From contig NZ_FXYY01000003.1 in NCBI RefSeq assembly GCF_900169165.1, positions 1 to 64,000 on the forward strand: DNA of 64,000 nt. The letters run 5' to 3'. Positions 25,458 through 30,324 of the stretch are shown piece by piece. The notes under the pieces are model-generated. The model worked only from the letters and a program-made list of their open reading frames with translations, did not search any database and was not told the DNA's origin. Within the stretch, counting starts at the first letter, position 1, and the number at the start of each line of letters is the position of its first letter. This stretch comes from Brevibacterium linens ATCC 9172. Its GTDB lineage: Bacteria; Actinomycetota; Actinomycetes; Actinomycetales; Brevibacteriaceae. A program made the translations under genes and the position numbers.

Positions 25458-25916
25458 ATGGACAAGAACACCATTGACAACGACGTCAGAACGATCATCG
25501 ATGAGGAAACCGCCCGCGTCTTCGCCCCGCGGCCGGGGGAATGCCTGGCCTGCTATGTGTTCCGCCAGCTCGGGGAATTCGGCTGCAACGGCACACACCG
25601 GTTCGCAGAGGGCTTCCGCGACCGTACGGCTCCACGTGCCACGGCGCTGATCGCGCGGCTGAGCAGTATGGGTGCCTGCTGCTGTGACTGTGAGATGTTC
25701 CTCAATGCCTTCACCTTCGCCGCCAAACCGTGGATCACCAGCATGCCGTTCGGCGAGCTTATCGGCACTCCCTTCGGGAATGAGGAAGCCATCGACATGA
25801 GAGAGAGATTCGGAATCGACGAACCTCCTTCGACGAAGCTCTACCTCTGCTGTCGACTGGTGAGGAGGGGATCCACGCAAGCCTGCGGAAACTGGGCCCG
25901 CATCCGACGATGGTGA
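25458..25916 (+). CDS. DUF2695 family protein
   Basis: A 152-residue protein with two cysteine clusters: CLACYVFRQLGEFGCNGTHR and, after an Arg/Ala-rich linker, SSMGACCCDCEMFLNAF. These match DUF2695 proteins, whose cysteines probably bind zinc. The stretch after about residue 85 is extra to the usual short domain and includes another Cys pair (LYLCCRL). Function is unknown. The GTG at 25452 is an alternative start. It ends 26 bases before the nucleoside hydrolase gene but has no obvious functional link to it. Confidence 0.7.
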   Translation: MDKNTIDNDVRTIIDEETARVFAPRPGECLACYVFRQLGEFGCNGTHRFAEGFRDRTAPRATALIARLSSMGACCCDCEMFLNAFTFAAKPWITSMPFGELIGTPFGNEEAIDMRERFGIDEPPSTKLYLCCRLVRRGSTQACGNWARIRRW

Positions 25917-25942
25917 GTGCACGCGTCCGGCAGAATAGAACC

Positions 25943-27103
25943 ATGCCTGCCACTCTGCCGCTCTTCCTCGACTGCGACCCCGGAATCGACGATGCCATTG
26001 CACTGGCCTACCTGTGCTGCCAAGACGACGTCGACGTCGTCGGCATTGCCGCATCCGGAGGCAACGTGGCCACCGCCCAGGTCGTCGAGAACACCCGCGG
26101 TTGGCTGACGCTGGCCGGGCGCAGCGACGTTCCCGTCCACGCCGGCCACAGTCTTCCAGTGGCACGGCAGGCCCTGCAGGCGGAATCGCAGGCATCGGAG
26201 ACGGCAACGGGCGAAGTCCTGGAATACGCCGACCTCACTCATGGCGAGACCGGACGCGGATATGCGCGGCTGCCGGACCCGAGCGCCCCGGCGAGTTCGG
26301 TATCGGCTGCTCAAGCGTGGGTCGATGCTGCCCACGCCCATCCCGGACAGCTCCTCGGGGTCGTCATCGGTCCGGCCACGAATCTCGCCTCGGCCCTCGA
26401 GATCGACCCGGATCTGCCGAGTCTGTTCAAGCGCCTCTTCATCATGGGCGGAGCATTCAACTACCGCGGCAACACCCACCCGACGACGGAATGGAACGTC
26501 ACCTTCGACCCCGAGTCCGCGGCCCGAGTGCTCGAGGCATTCGGCACAGCGCATGCGAGCGGTCACCTCGGACACCTGCCGGTCATCGCCCCCATCGAAG
26601 CGACCGAAGCCGTTGAGATGACACCTGAGCGCCTCACCGCGATCCTCGACGGAGCCCCTGCCGACGGTGCCGACGACCACTGGCAGTCGGTCCTCGAACA
26701 GCTTTCCGAAGCTCTGCGCTTCTACTTCGAGTTCCACGAATCCGACGGACTCGGTTATCTCGCCCACATCCACGACCCTTTCGTCCTCGCCTGCGCCCTG
26801 TCCTGGGCACGACAGAACACCGCTGAGTCGCTCGGGACAGCGCCCAAAGATCCGAACACCAACGTCTCGGAGGCGGCCGCCTCGGTGCCCGAACGAGGAT
26901 CTGCGGGGGAGCTGCCGTGGGCGTCGACGCTGTGGGCACCAGTCGATGTCGAACTCACGGGTACACTCACACGAGGCGAAACCGTCGCCGATTGGCTGGG
27001 ACGGTGGAGCCGCCCCGTGAATGCAGAGATCATCCGCACCATCGACGCTCCTGCCTTCCTCGACCACCTCAGTTCCACCCTGATGAAAGGACCACCAGCA
27101 TGA
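25943..27103 (+). CDS. Nucleoside hydrolase (inosine-uridine preferring family)
   Basis: A 386-residue N-ribosyl hydrolase that splits nucleosides to base plus ribose. The calcium/ribose site LFLDCDPGIDDAIAL (DxDxxxDD) is at residues 6-20. GPATNLASALE and IMGGAFNYRGNTHPTTEWNV are the family's substrate loops, and HIHDPFVLACAL holds the active-site Asp. It is longer than typical members (about 310-330), with an insert near residues 285-320. The stop overlaps the start of an ECF S-component gene (ATGA), so hydrolase and transporter are made together. This ties the transporter to nucleosides. Confidence 0.93.
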   Translation: MPATLPLFLDCDPGIDDAIALAYLCCQDDVDVVGIAASGGNVATAQVVENTRGWLTLAGRSDVPVHAGHSLPVARQALQAESQASETATGEVLEYADLTHGETGRGYARLPDPSAPASSVSAAQAWVDAAHAHPGQLLGVVIGPATNLASALEIDPDLPSLFKRLFIMGGAFNYRGNTHPTTEWNVTFDPESAARVLEAFGTAHASGHLGHLPVIAPIEATEAVEMTPERLTAILDGAPADGADDHWQSVLEQLSEALRFYFEFHESDGLGYLAHIHDPFVLACALSWARQNTAESLGTAPKDPNTNVSEAAASVPERGSAGELPWASTLWAPVDVELTGTLTRGETVADWLGRWSRPVNAEIIRTIDAPAFLDHLSSTLMKGPPA

Positions 27104-27981
27104 CCGCACACTCCAGACAGTCTGGGCAGGGGCCGACCACCACGGTCGGTCCCGGACAAAAACGCAACCGCACCCTAGCTCTCGCCCTCACTCTGCTCGG
27201 CACCCTCATCGTCATCGGCACCTACGTCGCCGTGCTGCTGACCCAACCGGCCAACCTCGGTGTCGACCTCGGCCATACCACTCTGTGGGTCATGCTCGGC
27301 TATCTGGTCGGAGGCATTCTGCTCGCCGCCGGTACCCTCCCGCTGATTCCCCGCAGCGTTCTCGCCCTCATTCCGGTCGCCATTGCCCTCAACATCGTCA
27401 TCGGGCAGATCATCGGCAACTACACCCCCGTACCCCTCTACCTCGACTCCATCGGAACGGTGCTCATCGGCGTCCTGGCAGGGCCCGCCGCAGGCGCCTT
27501 CACGGGAATCATCTCGAACCTTATCTGGGGCGTGACCCTGAGCCCCAGCGTCATCGCCTTCAGCTCCGGGGCCGCCTTCATCGGAGCTGCCGCCGGCTGG
27601 GCAGCACGACTCGGGGTCTTCCGCACACCCTGGACGGCGGTCATCGTCGGCGCCGTCGCCGGGGTTCCCGCCGGTGCCATCGGAGCACCCGTAGCCGCCT
27701 ACGTCTTCGGCGGCGGACTCGGAGCCGGAACCGGGGGAGTGGTGGCCATCCTCCAAGCCGCGGGCCTCGAGATGTTCAACGCCACCTTCGCTCAGAGCAT
27801 GGTCTCCGACATCGTCGATAAGGCGCTCATCTTCACCCTCGCCTATGTCGTCATCCGGTCGCTGCCCAAACGCATCATCGGTCGCTACCCCTTCGCCCTG
27901 CACAGCCGCCCGAAGACAGCGTCGACTGAGAGCACAACGCCAGCCGAAGCGACGGCCGAGTCGGCGCCCGCGGCGGAATGA
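27100..27981 (+). CDS. ECF transporter substrate-binding (S) component, probably for nucleosides
   Basis: A 293-residue polytopic membrane protein with about six to eight helices. It includes NYTPVPLYLDSIGTVLIGVLAGPAAGAFTG, the typical ECF S-component helix with a DSIGT loop, and the Ala/Gly-rich packing helices used to contact the T subunit. Its ATG overlaps the hydrolase stop, and its own stop overlaps the T-subunit start. AAAGGA precedes ATG. Specificity is inferred from the operon: a nucleoside or its base. The charged Ala/Thr/Glu-rich tail (residues about 268-293) is unusual. Confidence 0.85.
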   Translation: MTAHSRQSGQGPTTTVGPGQKRNRTLALALTLLGTLIVIGTYVAVLLTQPANLGVDLGHTTLWVMLGYLVGGILLAAGTLPLIPRSVLALIPVAIALNIVIGQIIGNYTPVPLYLDSIGTVLIGVLAGPAAGAFTGIISNLIWGVTLSPSVIAFSSGAAFIGAAAGWAARLGVFRTPWTAVIVGAVAGVPAGAIGAPVAAYVFGGGLGAGTGGVVAILQAAGLEMFNATFAQSMVSDIVDKALIFTLAYVVIRSLPKRIIGRYPFALHSRPKTASTESTTPAEATAESAPAAE

Positions 27982-28832
27982 TCGCCTCCGGTCCCAAGAC
28001 CCCCGGCGCAGGAGGCGCCGCCGTATCTCCAGACGACGGTCGCACTGATCTCGGTCGCCGGCTGCATCCGGCGACCGAGATCGTCATCCTCTTCAGCAGC
28101 CTCCTGCTCGTCTTCGGGGTGCCTTCACCCGTGGTGCCCATGGCCGTCATCGTCGCCACCGTGCTCACAGTCGTCGTCTCACCGGCGCTGCGTCTGCGGT
28201 CGTGGGCTCTCGGTGTCGCCGTGCTGTGCCTGCCGACGCTGCTCGTGCTCGTCATCGTGCAGGGATTCTTCTACCCGGGCGCCGAGGTGCATGTCCTCTG
28301 GGAGGCAGCACCGGCGCATCTCAGCGTCGAAGGACTGAGCATTGCAATCCAGATCTGGCTGCGCGTGACCGCACTCATCGGCCTGTGTGCCCTCTTCGGC
28401 CTCGGCGCCGATTCGGCTCGACTCTTCGATGGTCTGCGCATGCTCCGACTGCCCGACAGCATCGCCTATGTGTGTGCCTCCGCAATCGGACTCATCCCTC
28501 TCATCGGCGCCCGAACCCGCCACGTCACCGAAGCCCGCAAGGCCCGAGGCTGGGCGACGCAGCGCTGGCGCGTGCGGATGCGGCTGCTGCCGGGCATCGT
28601 CACGGGCTTGTTCACCTCGGTGCTCATCGAGGTTGAACAGCGCCACGAGGTGCTCGAGCAGAGCGGCCTCGGAGCGAACAGCCGCCGTGTCGAACTGCAC
28701 GACTACCGCAACGGTCGCGGACAGGGACTGCTCCGTATCACCATCGCTGTCGTCGCGGTCGGTCTCGTCGCCGCCTCGGTGGCCGGTGTGCTGCCGCTGC
28801 CGAACTCCTCTCAACTGATCGGTGTCCGCTGA
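27978..28832 (+). CDS. ecfT: ECF transporter transmembrane (T) component
   Basis: A 284-residue energy-coupling T subunit. It has about five membrane helices and a long cytoplasmic coupling region with the ARKARGW motif (residues about 187-193), the Ala-Arg-Gly coupling box that docks in the ATPase groove. A second ARG-like motif is not obvious. It starts on ATGA with the S-component gene. It would join one S and the fused double ATPase encoded next. Confidence 0.88.
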   Translation: MIASGPKTPGAGGAAVSPDDGRTDLGRRLHPATEIVILFSSLLLVFGVPSPVVPMAVIVATVLTVVVSPALRLRSWALGVAVLCLPTLLVLVIVQGFFYPGAEVHVLWEAAPAHLSVEGLSIAIQIWLRVTALIGLCALFGLGADSARLFDGLRMLRLPDSIAYVCASAIGLIPLIGARTRHVTEARKARGWATQRWRVRMRLLPGIVTGLFTSVLIEVEQRHEVLEQSGLGANSRRVELHDYRNGRGQGLLRITIAVVAVGLVAASVAGVLPLPNSSQLIGVR

Positions 28833-28842
28833 GGTGAGGGCG

Positions 28843-30324
28843 ATGACAGGTTTCGGATTCACCTACGCCGGTGAAGAGACTCAGGCACTGACCGATGTCG
28901 TCCTGTCGCTGCCGGCAGGATCGATGACCGCCGTTGTCGGTCCCGTCGGATCGGGCACATCGACCCTGGCTCGGGCGTTGGCCGGTCTGCTCGGGACCAG
29001 AGGAACTTCGACCGGGCACGTCGATGCCGCTGGGACGGCCGGGCTCCTCGGCGATGATCCGGAAGCCCAGCTGAGCGGAATGACCAGCCACGTCGAGGAT
29101 GAGGTCCAGTTGGCGTGCAGATTGCGCGGCATTGCTGGGGTCGAGTCAGAGGAGCGGGCGCGGACTGCACTGGCACGGTTGGGGATCGATGGCCTGTGGG
29201 CCCGCCGTCTCGATACGCTCTCCGGCGGTCAGCGCCAATTGGTGGCGTTGTCGAGGATCACCGCACTCGACCCCGATCTGCTCATTCTGGACCAGCCCTC
29301 GCAGTCACTCGATCCCGATATGCGTCGATGTCTGGCGTCGGCCCTGCGGGAAACCTGTGATCGTGGGCGTTCGGTGCTCATCACCGGACACCAGATCGAC
29401 GAGCTTGCTCTCTGCTGCCACAAGGTGCGCTTCCTCGACGCGGGTAGGCTGAGGCCGGCTCACGTCGCGCCCGGGGATTCCGGGGTCGACACCGAATCCG
29501 ACGCCGACGCCGACGCTTTCGCAGGTACACGTGACGAACTGGGCCGTTTCGCACAGCTGCAGGGAGTCTGGGACACCCGTCCCGTTGACCCGCCCGGTCC
29601 GGTCATTCCGACCGCACCCGTGAGTACCGAGACCGTGCTTAAGGTGAGGGACTTCGGCGTGGACCGCGCAGGCACAGTTGTGCTCAAAGGCGTCGACTTC
29701 GACCTTCACCCCGGTGAGCTGAGCACCCTCACCGGCGCCAACGGAGCGGGGAAGTCGACTCTGCTGCGCGGGCTCATCGGACTCCTCGACCGGTCGGCTG
29801 ACTGCGCGGGCACGGTCACGGCGAGCCGCCTCGGCGAAGGGACGAATCTGCTGGACCTGCCCGCCCACGTGCGCAGCGCTCATCTGGGATGGGTCGGACA
29901 GGACCCCGGTGTCCAGCTCTCGGCGGCGACCGTGCGATCCGAACTCATGCGTGCGGCTCCGCTGCCGCGCCACCGGCGGCGCGACCGGCCGGAGATGATC
30001 GAACAGCGTCGCCGCATCGTCGACACGGCGTTGGACGAGGCCGATCTGGCTGCCGTGTGTGAGGAGCATCCATTCGACCTCGACACGCCCCGGCGCAAAG
30101 ACCTCGTCATCGCCTCGGCCCTTGTCACAGGCGCAGAAGTCCTGCTTCTCGACGAACCCACGATCGGTCGCGACCGGACAGGAATGGACCGACTGAGCGC
30201 GATCATCGATGGCTTCCTGGCTCGAGGCGGCGCCGTCCTCGCGACAACCCACGACCACCGGTGGGCCCAGGAATCCTCTCATCGTCGATTTCGCCTTGCT
30301 GATGGACGAGTGAATCTGTGCTGA
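28843..30324 (+). CDS. Fused double ECF ATPase with one degenerate site
   Basis: A 493-residue protein with two ABC ATPase domains that powers the ECF transporter. Domain 1 (residues 1-about 225) has a mutated Walker A, GPVGSGTST, with Thr39 in place of the essential Lys. Its signature LSGGQ (about 126) is intact, and its Walker B is LLILDQPS with Gln151 replacing the catalytic Glu. Domain 2 has a normal Walker A (GANGAGKST, about 298) and Walker B (LLLDEPT, about 433-439), but its signature is replaced by DTPRRKD. In the folded dimer this leaves exactly one complete ATP site. ATG 28843 with GAGGTGAGGGCG upstream is preferred to GTG 28822. Confidence 0.9.
   Translation: MTGFGFTYAGEETQALTDVVLSLPAGSMTAVVGPVGSGTSTLARALAGLLGTRGTSTGHVDAAGTAGLLGDDPEAQLSGMTSHVEDEVQLACRLRGIAGVESEERARTALARLGIDGLWARRLDTLSGGQRQLVALSRITALDPDLLILDQPSQSLDPDMRRCLASALRETCDRGRSVLITGHQIDELALCCHKVRFLDAGRLRPAHVAPGDSGVDTESDADADAFAGTRDELGRFAQLQGVWDTRPVDPPGPVIPTAPVSTETVLKVRDFGVDRAGTVVLKGVDFDLHPGELSTLTGANGAGKSTLLRGLIGLLDRSADCAGTVTASRLGEGTNLLDLPAHVRSAHLGWVGQDPGVQLSAATVRSELMRAAPLPRHRRRDRPEMIEQRRRIVDTALDEADLAAVCEEHPFDLDTPRRKDLVIASALVTGAEVLLLDEPTIGRDRTGMDRLSAIIDGFLARGGAVLATTHDHRWAQESSHRRFRLADGRVNLC

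Follow-up and report, generated by a model that had tools for sequence, protein, structure and literature searches.

A predicted ECF importer of Brevibacterium linens whose fused ATPase has one canonical and one degenerate ATP site

The window analyzed here, a 64,000-nucleotide stretch of DNA from Brevibacterium linens ATCC 9172, contains four overlapping genes on the + strand that encode a nucleoside hydrolase, an S-component, an EcfT and a fused EcfAA' ATPase. The operon begins with an inosine-uridine preferring nucleoside hydrolase (IUNH; 25910..27103, +; Pfam PF01156, 7.1e-74), followed by a CD3073-like ECF S-component (27100..27981, +), an EcfT transmembrane component of the CbiQ family (27978..28832, +; PF02361, 6.8e-15) and the fused ATPase (28822..30324, +), which has two Pfam ABC_tran stretches and, by its motifs, two composite ATP sites of which one is canonical and the other degenerate. 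The order hydrolase, S, T, ATPase is kept in all 37 named loci, which come from Brevibacterium, Nesterenkonia, Leucobacter, Helcobacillus and Sediminivirga. An integral-membrane S-component stands in the place of a soluble binding protein, as expected of an ECF (type III) system. The four-gene operon likely encodes a dedicated ECF (type III ABC) importer, with a module that travels with its own S-component.

A Pfam search with the S-component at E 0.001 returned no matches, and its sole NCBIfam match at the same threshold was NF045596, the CD3073 equivalog family (7e-32). The protein is homologous to that family, its score of 110.5 bits lies under the cut-off of 180, and a shared function does not follow from the match. 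All three S-component relatives tested against PF12822 exceeded the cut-off of that model. The S-component probably starts at the ATG at 27100, as judged from an ATGA overlap with the hydrolase stop. Of the two Ala-Arg-Gly motifs of EcfT, the first is present and the second lacks its Arg and reads SGL. The same Arg-less second motif (within 27978-28832 in the window) occurs in nine named Brevibacterium loci, and the other named loci retain RG. We considered this loss as a companion of the one-site state described below and rejected it; locus L156 is its only occurrence outside the window subclade.

The ATPase open reading frame spans 500 aa from a GTG at 28822, with a second GTG at 28834 and an internal ATG at 28843 as other possible starts. 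A preliminary description of this DNA had placed the gene at 28843-30324; the end stands, and the start given there is the internal ATG. Among NCBIfam models, the heme-exporter model CcmA (TIGR01189) exceeded its cut-off, with its best stretch in domain 2; cbiO and ECF ATPase models were among the top matches, every ECF model shown being under its cut-off. We class the protein as an ECF ATPase because of its operon context.

Direct translation of the + strand revealed complementary changes in the two domains. In domain 1, the Walker A motif reads GPVGSGTST (28939..28965), with Thr in place of Lys, the Q-loop/Q-helix reads LGDDPEAQ (29047..29070), with Asp in place of Gln, and the Walker B motif reads LLILDQP (29278..29298), with Gln in place of the catalytic Glu; the signature is a perfect LSGGQ (29218..29232) and the H-loop His (29389) is retained. 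Domain 2 has a perfect Walker A motif (GANGAGKST, 29734..29760), a retained Q-loop Gln (29899), a perfect Walker B motif with the catalytic Glu (LLLDEP, 30142..30159) and a retained H-loop His (30250), and reads LDTPRRKD where LSGGQxxR is expected (30079..30102). The Walker and Q-loop residues lost from domain 1 and the signature lost from domain 2 fall in one composite site, and the reciprocal set is intact. We rejected an alignment artefact as the source of this pattern, as the motifs were read by direct translation and in three alignments. The preliminary description had reported the states of Walker A, Walker B and signature in both domains, all of which we saw in the translation; it had overlooked a further change in the same composite site, the Q-loop Gln-to-Asp change of domain 1. 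It had concluded that one canonical and one dead site result. The motif changes are indeed complementary, but 'dead' goes further than the sequences show for a site whose residues are almost invariant in the window clade and which may still bind a nucleotide.

The argument that each site is built from both domains agrees with a predicted structure. AlphaFold2, run on the fused ATPase with a 19-row alignment of the window and locus proteins, gave a model with a mean pLDDT of 90.9 and a pTM of 0.89. Residues 3-500 of the model align with fused NBD pairs, best with ATP-bound DppD (8wdb_D, Z 31.9, 3.2 Å over 450 residues); other matches were ATP-bound CFTR, ATP-bound ABCC4 and outward-facing ABCB1, and also apo ABCB1 (8avy). 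Foldseek TM scores were 0.75 for ATP-bound DppD 8wdb and 0.67 for the apo form, with ATP-bound 8xfc also at 0.67. The only ECF-type ATPase among the best 50 structural matches listed was CbiO (5x40_A). A closed head-to-tail domain pair is the likeliest predicted state, the match being not exclusive to closed states.

We then asked how widely the substitutions are shared. The window clade comprises 50 distinct ATPases from Brevibacterium, Nesterenkonia and others. For the motif alignment, six identical rows were removed, L155 (its last two domains) and L225 (two pieces as one domain) were set by hand, and L159 and L160 (repeats of L115 and L119) were left out together with L091 (genome G059), an unrelated, canonical protein in a 304-aa frame that is 31% identical. 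In domain 1, the Walker A Lys is absent from 50/50 sequences (T 44, A 3, I 2, L 1), as is the Q-loop Gln (D 48, E 2), and the catalytic Glu is replaced by Gln in 48/50, with Glu kept in L029 and L034; the SGG of the signature and the H-loop His are present in every sequence. The signature of domain 2 is degenerate throughout the clade (50/50), with RKD in its place nearly constant (Arg 49/50, Lys 50/50, Asp 50/50), and the Gln, Asp, Glu and His of that domain are each retained in 50/50. Its Walker A Lys is found in 49/50, the remaining row being an alignment gap. The substitutions thus co-occur across the genus and beyond, and close homologues with intact residues, which would have pointed to decay in this strain, were looked for and not found within the clade.

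The residues of the degenerate site are themselves conserved. Across 17 hand-chosen columns of this site, the mean majority frequency in the window clade was 0.987, compared with 0.669 and 0.660 when every column of each domain is counted; none of 20,000 random column sets reached this figure. It reflects constraint on the whole site and not on the substitutions alone, because ABC proteins in general conserve several of the chosen columns. The stretches GTST, GDDPEAQ, LDQP, GHQ and RKD are near-invariant, the Lys position itself being variable (Thr in 44/50). From these alignments, the degenerate site of the window clade looks frozen rather than rotting.

Two sets of control ATPases showed a different pattern. 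A different fused ECF ATPase, searched by homology to L158, is present in 85/119 genomes of the order. The first controls, which consisted of the 30 loci ranked highest for a canonical query plus L158 and hence were alike by choice, were canonical at every motif position (31/31). The second controls were 35 weaker matches hand-picked from the same list, outside the window's family; an EcfT match was found in the stretch for 23 of them, and some of the 35 may not be ECF systems. Searching their stretches for an S-component of the window family found none. In this second set, the catalytic Glu and a Gly as fourth signature letter were present in both domains in 35/35, and the Walker A Lys was present in both domains save for a gap in L307 and another in L318. 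A second signature of the form LSxG with another third letter occurred in eight (L295, L299, L308, L309, L312, L315, L317 and L318), and the H-loop His was missing from both domains in two (L308 and L309), so small drift of ABC motifs occurs elsewhere too and is not special to the window's family. L308 and L309 belong to another kind of fused ATPase and carry LSTGE/LSSGE signatures. In sum, none of the 66 other fused ECF-like pairs lacked the Lys, the catalytic Glu or the second Gly of LSGGQ (two rows with gaps). Because the controls retain these residues, their loss in the window's family is explained neither by fusion nor by identity as an actinobacterial ECF system.

To look beyond the window clade, we searched for relatives of the S-component. 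NF045596 matched in 111/245 genomes of a related family and 8/197 of a distant order (both at E 1e-10), and in 11/396 genomes across the phylum (E 0.001). We took 40 regions from the related-family and distant-order matches, and 10 had been taken earlier from other searches. Of 44 loci (L154-L157 and L201-L240), 34 carried S, T and ATPase matches together, and for 32 of these 34 a nucleoside hydrolase match also fell within the stretch, L155 having it on the opposite strand. In the remaining ten (L201, L203-L207, L229, L232, L238 and L239), an S-like domain occurred with no EcfT match in the stretch, several of these domains lying in open frames of ~700-830 aa; they are possibly S-fold receptors or other fusions. 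In L156 (1524-7317), genes for a PRA-isomerase-like protein, for a PfkB kinase and for a nucleoside hydrolase come after an S-T-A1-A2 operon, and these neighbors suggest nucleoside or ribose use. In a plasmid collection, the L154 S-component matched 17 records, eight of which we examined. Nucleoside hydrolases accompany the S-component in three haloarchaea and Enterococcus raffinosus, the Salmonella and Cetobacterium records have ECF genes and no nucleoside hydrolase in the stretch, and in an Acetoanaerobium record the S-component was found alone. A conjugative Lacticaseibacillus plasmid (L277, 4931-6465) encodes a nucleoside hydrolase and an S-component with no ECF module in the stretch, and this S-component may borrow a chromosomal ECF module. 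NF045596 was the best match of all six S-component relatives tested; the Cetobacterium protein (L272) scored highest and above the cut-off, and its locus differs from the window in having a TudS-related neighbor and two canonical ATPases.

From these searches we assembled a wider set of 39 distinct ATPase pairs, each lying next to a related S-component; Actinomycetota, Enterococcus, E. coli, Salmonella, haloarchaea and Cetobacterium are represented. The second signature is degenerate in 38/39, the exception being Cetobacterium L272 with ISGGQ, and 39/39 retain Lys, Gln, Asp, Glu and His in the second ATPase. Signature 1 reads LSGG in 38 pairs and LSSG in one. Losses from the first ATPase are patchier: Lys in two pairs (plus one gap), Glu in seven and the Walker B Asp in four, with Gln-Gln replacing Asp-Glu in the three haloarchaea. 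Its H-loop His is lost in 30/39, three of these being gaps, which makes it the least certain column; in L157 and L279, a His occupies the next position. The most degraded first domains are those of L208, L209 and L213, in all of which the H-loop is unaligned, as is Walker A in L208. Structure comparisons of the Enterococcus proteins, meant to match the domains to EcfA and EcfA', gave a split result: A2 scored higher with EcfA2 than with EcfA1 in 4huq and 9kym, the order was reversed for the entries from L. delbrueckii and T. maritima, and A1 scored close with both. In E. coli 042 (L279, 3003-5625), an S-T-A1-A2 operon with LHSAQ as second signature lies between epd and yggC, where K-12 MG1655 has no such operon annotated. 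DNA related to the Salmonella relative was found in 3302/5426 complete E. coli genomes, E. coli 042 being the one whose motifs were read.

The asymmetry belongs to a wider set of systems, represented outside Actinomycetota by seven of the 39 pairs. This qualifies the preliminary description, which had called it unusual for ECF importers, where both sites are normally active: the rule of two active sites agrees with our controls and with passages of the ECF-FolT2 papers, but the exception extends past this one protein.

How the half-sites changed was examined on a tree of 68 rows, which was built without the motif columns by a quick method and leaves 21 of 65 inner branches open. Counted as minima on this one tree, with gaps scored as lost and no direction implied, the fewest changes were two for signature 2, three for Lys1, six for Glu1, seven for His1 and two for the Q-loop, and zero each for signature 1, Glu2 and His2. 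Signature 2 needs at least two changes because Cetobacterium L272, on a long branch, sits inside; a single clade of all the ATPases except L272 was not rejected (p-AU 0.112). The half-site facing the lost signature appears to have changed several times, and the reciprocal site did not. The simplest story would be that the second signature was lost early and that the facing half-site then changed repeatedly.

Several known transporters resemble the window system in part. In B. subtilis, NupO serves a nucleoside importer. NupO and RbsA, the NBD proteins of type II importers in that species, are likewise fused NBD pairs with one degenerate site according to passages of PMC11466899, but their dead half lies in the other domain, with a second Walker A motif that lacks Lys, and their membrane domains are of type II; that study states that it left out ECF transporters. 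In yeast Pdr5, passages of a review (PMC7756269) describe a single polypeptide in which one composite site is changed in its Walker A Lys, its Walker B Glu and the signature facing them, as in the window, but Pdr5 is an exporter that has also lost the H-loop His, which the window clade keeps throughout. The same review relates that putting the lost residues back into exporters had no effect or was harmful. Like ECF-FolT2 and other group II ECF transporters (EcfA, EcfA', EcfT and S), the window system has the same kinds of subunits, a CbiQ-type EcfT with an Ala-Arg-Gly motif and two ABC ATPase domains; it differs from ECF-FolT2 in that its ATPases are fused, its module travels with its own S-component and one site is degenerate. 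Both ATPases of ECF-FolT2 carry all motifs and so form two complete ATP sites, according to passages of PMC4820897, and the window ATPase does not share this property. Likewise, passages of a 2024 paper (PMC11109136) call the Walker and signature motifs of the ECF module well conserved. Among the matches listed from open-licence PMC papers, judged by titles, the starts of abstracts and passages, none reported a degenerate site in an ECF transporter. The window system would resemble Pdr5 or RbsA/NupO at its ATP sites, and its S and T subunits mark it as an ECF importer.

When ATP binds to ECF-FolT2, the ATPase dimer closes, EcfT bends and the S-component is expelled; hydrolysis then resets the system. 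A Glu-to-Gln change in either ATPase of ECF-FolT2 reduced ATPase activity to background and abolished folate transport, in the passages of PMC10368641 that report it. Because either mutant loses transport, a one-site ECF system must work differently or be inactive. An ECF ATPase with Gln for Glu, no Lys and no facing signature would, if it works at all, cycle on the other site alone. We consider it probable that the window operon encodes a dedicated ECF importer, most likely for a nucleoside, with one hydrolytic site. What the analysis shows directly is the motif changes with their conservation, the operon, the distribution across relatives and the predicted fold. In the mechanism that we infer, which covers the pairing of sites in the real complex, the ATPase behavior, the use of one ATP per cycle and the substrate, the ATPase domains would pair head to tail. 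Site 2, formed by Walker A, Walker B and the H-loop of domain 2 with the LSGGQ of domain 1, would bind and hydrolyze ATP. Site 1, formed by Walker A and Walker B of domain 1 with the former signature of domain 2, would be unable to hydrolyze ATP, its catalytic residues being lost, and might serve as a fixed hinge or a non-hydrolyzing nucleotide clamp. One ATP binding event would close the dimer and reset EcfT and the S-component, one hydrolysis would reopen the dimer, and the imported substrate, most likely a nucleoside, would be cleaved after entry. Several observations count against this reading: besides the ECF-FolT2 mutants, the ATPase diverges faster than a canonical counterpart (see below), L029 and L034 keep the Glu, the Cetobacterium relative has two canonical ATPases, some of the second controls show motif drift, and the ATPase exceeds the cut-off of CcmA while falling under those of the ECF models shown.

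A decaying pseudo-transporter, with an ATPase that is losing function in a system on its way out, could also produce lost motifs. The window ATPase diverges faster than the canonical fused ECF ATPase in 5/6 pairs from the same four species, as relaxed constraint would also give. Within the genus, the ATPase was found in 35/57 genomes (window's own included; E 1e-60 or better), the others being 50-92% identical to it, and the S-component was found in the same 35; both are missing from 22. In one genome (G020), the ATPase carries a TGA within the aligned stretch, and an open frame of 498 aa remains. Yet the two genes occur jointly or not at all, and across the other genus genomes that match the S-component in a single piece its identity is 79-98%, with G022 at 66%. 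The canonical site, moreover, is intact in all 50 sequences of the window clade and all 39 pairs of the wider set, save one alignment gap, and the residues of the degenerate site are almost invariant in the window clade. Decay in this strain alone is rejected by the conservation across that clade, and we regard decay of the system at large as very improbable. A stronger contender, though one we hold only tentatively, is that the degenerate site still binds ATP, another nucleotide or a nucleoside as a regulatory pocket that senses the imported compound or the energy state. Its near-invariant stretches would fit such a pocket, and degenerate sites of exporters can hold MgATP over many cycles, as part of the review cited above (PMC7756269) relates; the Walker A Lys and the Q-loop Gln, however, are both missing from every ATPase of the window clade.

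The identity of the substrate raises a further alternative. Because a nucleoside hydrolase adjoins the importer genes, the gene neighborhood points to nucleoside uptake, and a nucleoside is the most likely substrate. The operon could instead serve queuosine/queuine salvage, with the hydrolase acting like QueK, rather than general nucleoside import. ECF-type importers and a nucleoside hydrolase are known for Q salvage from passages of PMC11130926, and the genome has TGT and no QueA match. But the control C. glutamicum likewise has TGT without QueA, and TGT does not track the operon, being present in 34/35 genomes with it and 19/22 without. The S-component, in addition, points by its sole NCBIfam match to NF045596. 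On this evidence, queuosine salvage is a distant prospect, and import of a nucleoside through a one-site ECF system is the reading we prefer.

We give roughly even odds to a broader proposal, namely that the window system belongs to an ECF class common to bacteria and archaea that works with a single ATP site. In this class, the second signature would have been lost early, perhaps once, the facing half-site would have changed independently in several lineages with the reciprocal site unchanged, one ATP per cycle would reset EcfT and the S-component, and the degenerate site would be retained as a clamp for the structure or as a pocket for a ligand. The sequences suggest that dozens of species have natural single-site versions of ECF transporters. 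Should these complexes prove to transport, a second hydrolysis per cycle would be unnecessary in principle, and natural proteins, rather than crippled mutants, could be used to measure the minimal ATP cost of import and the role of each site.
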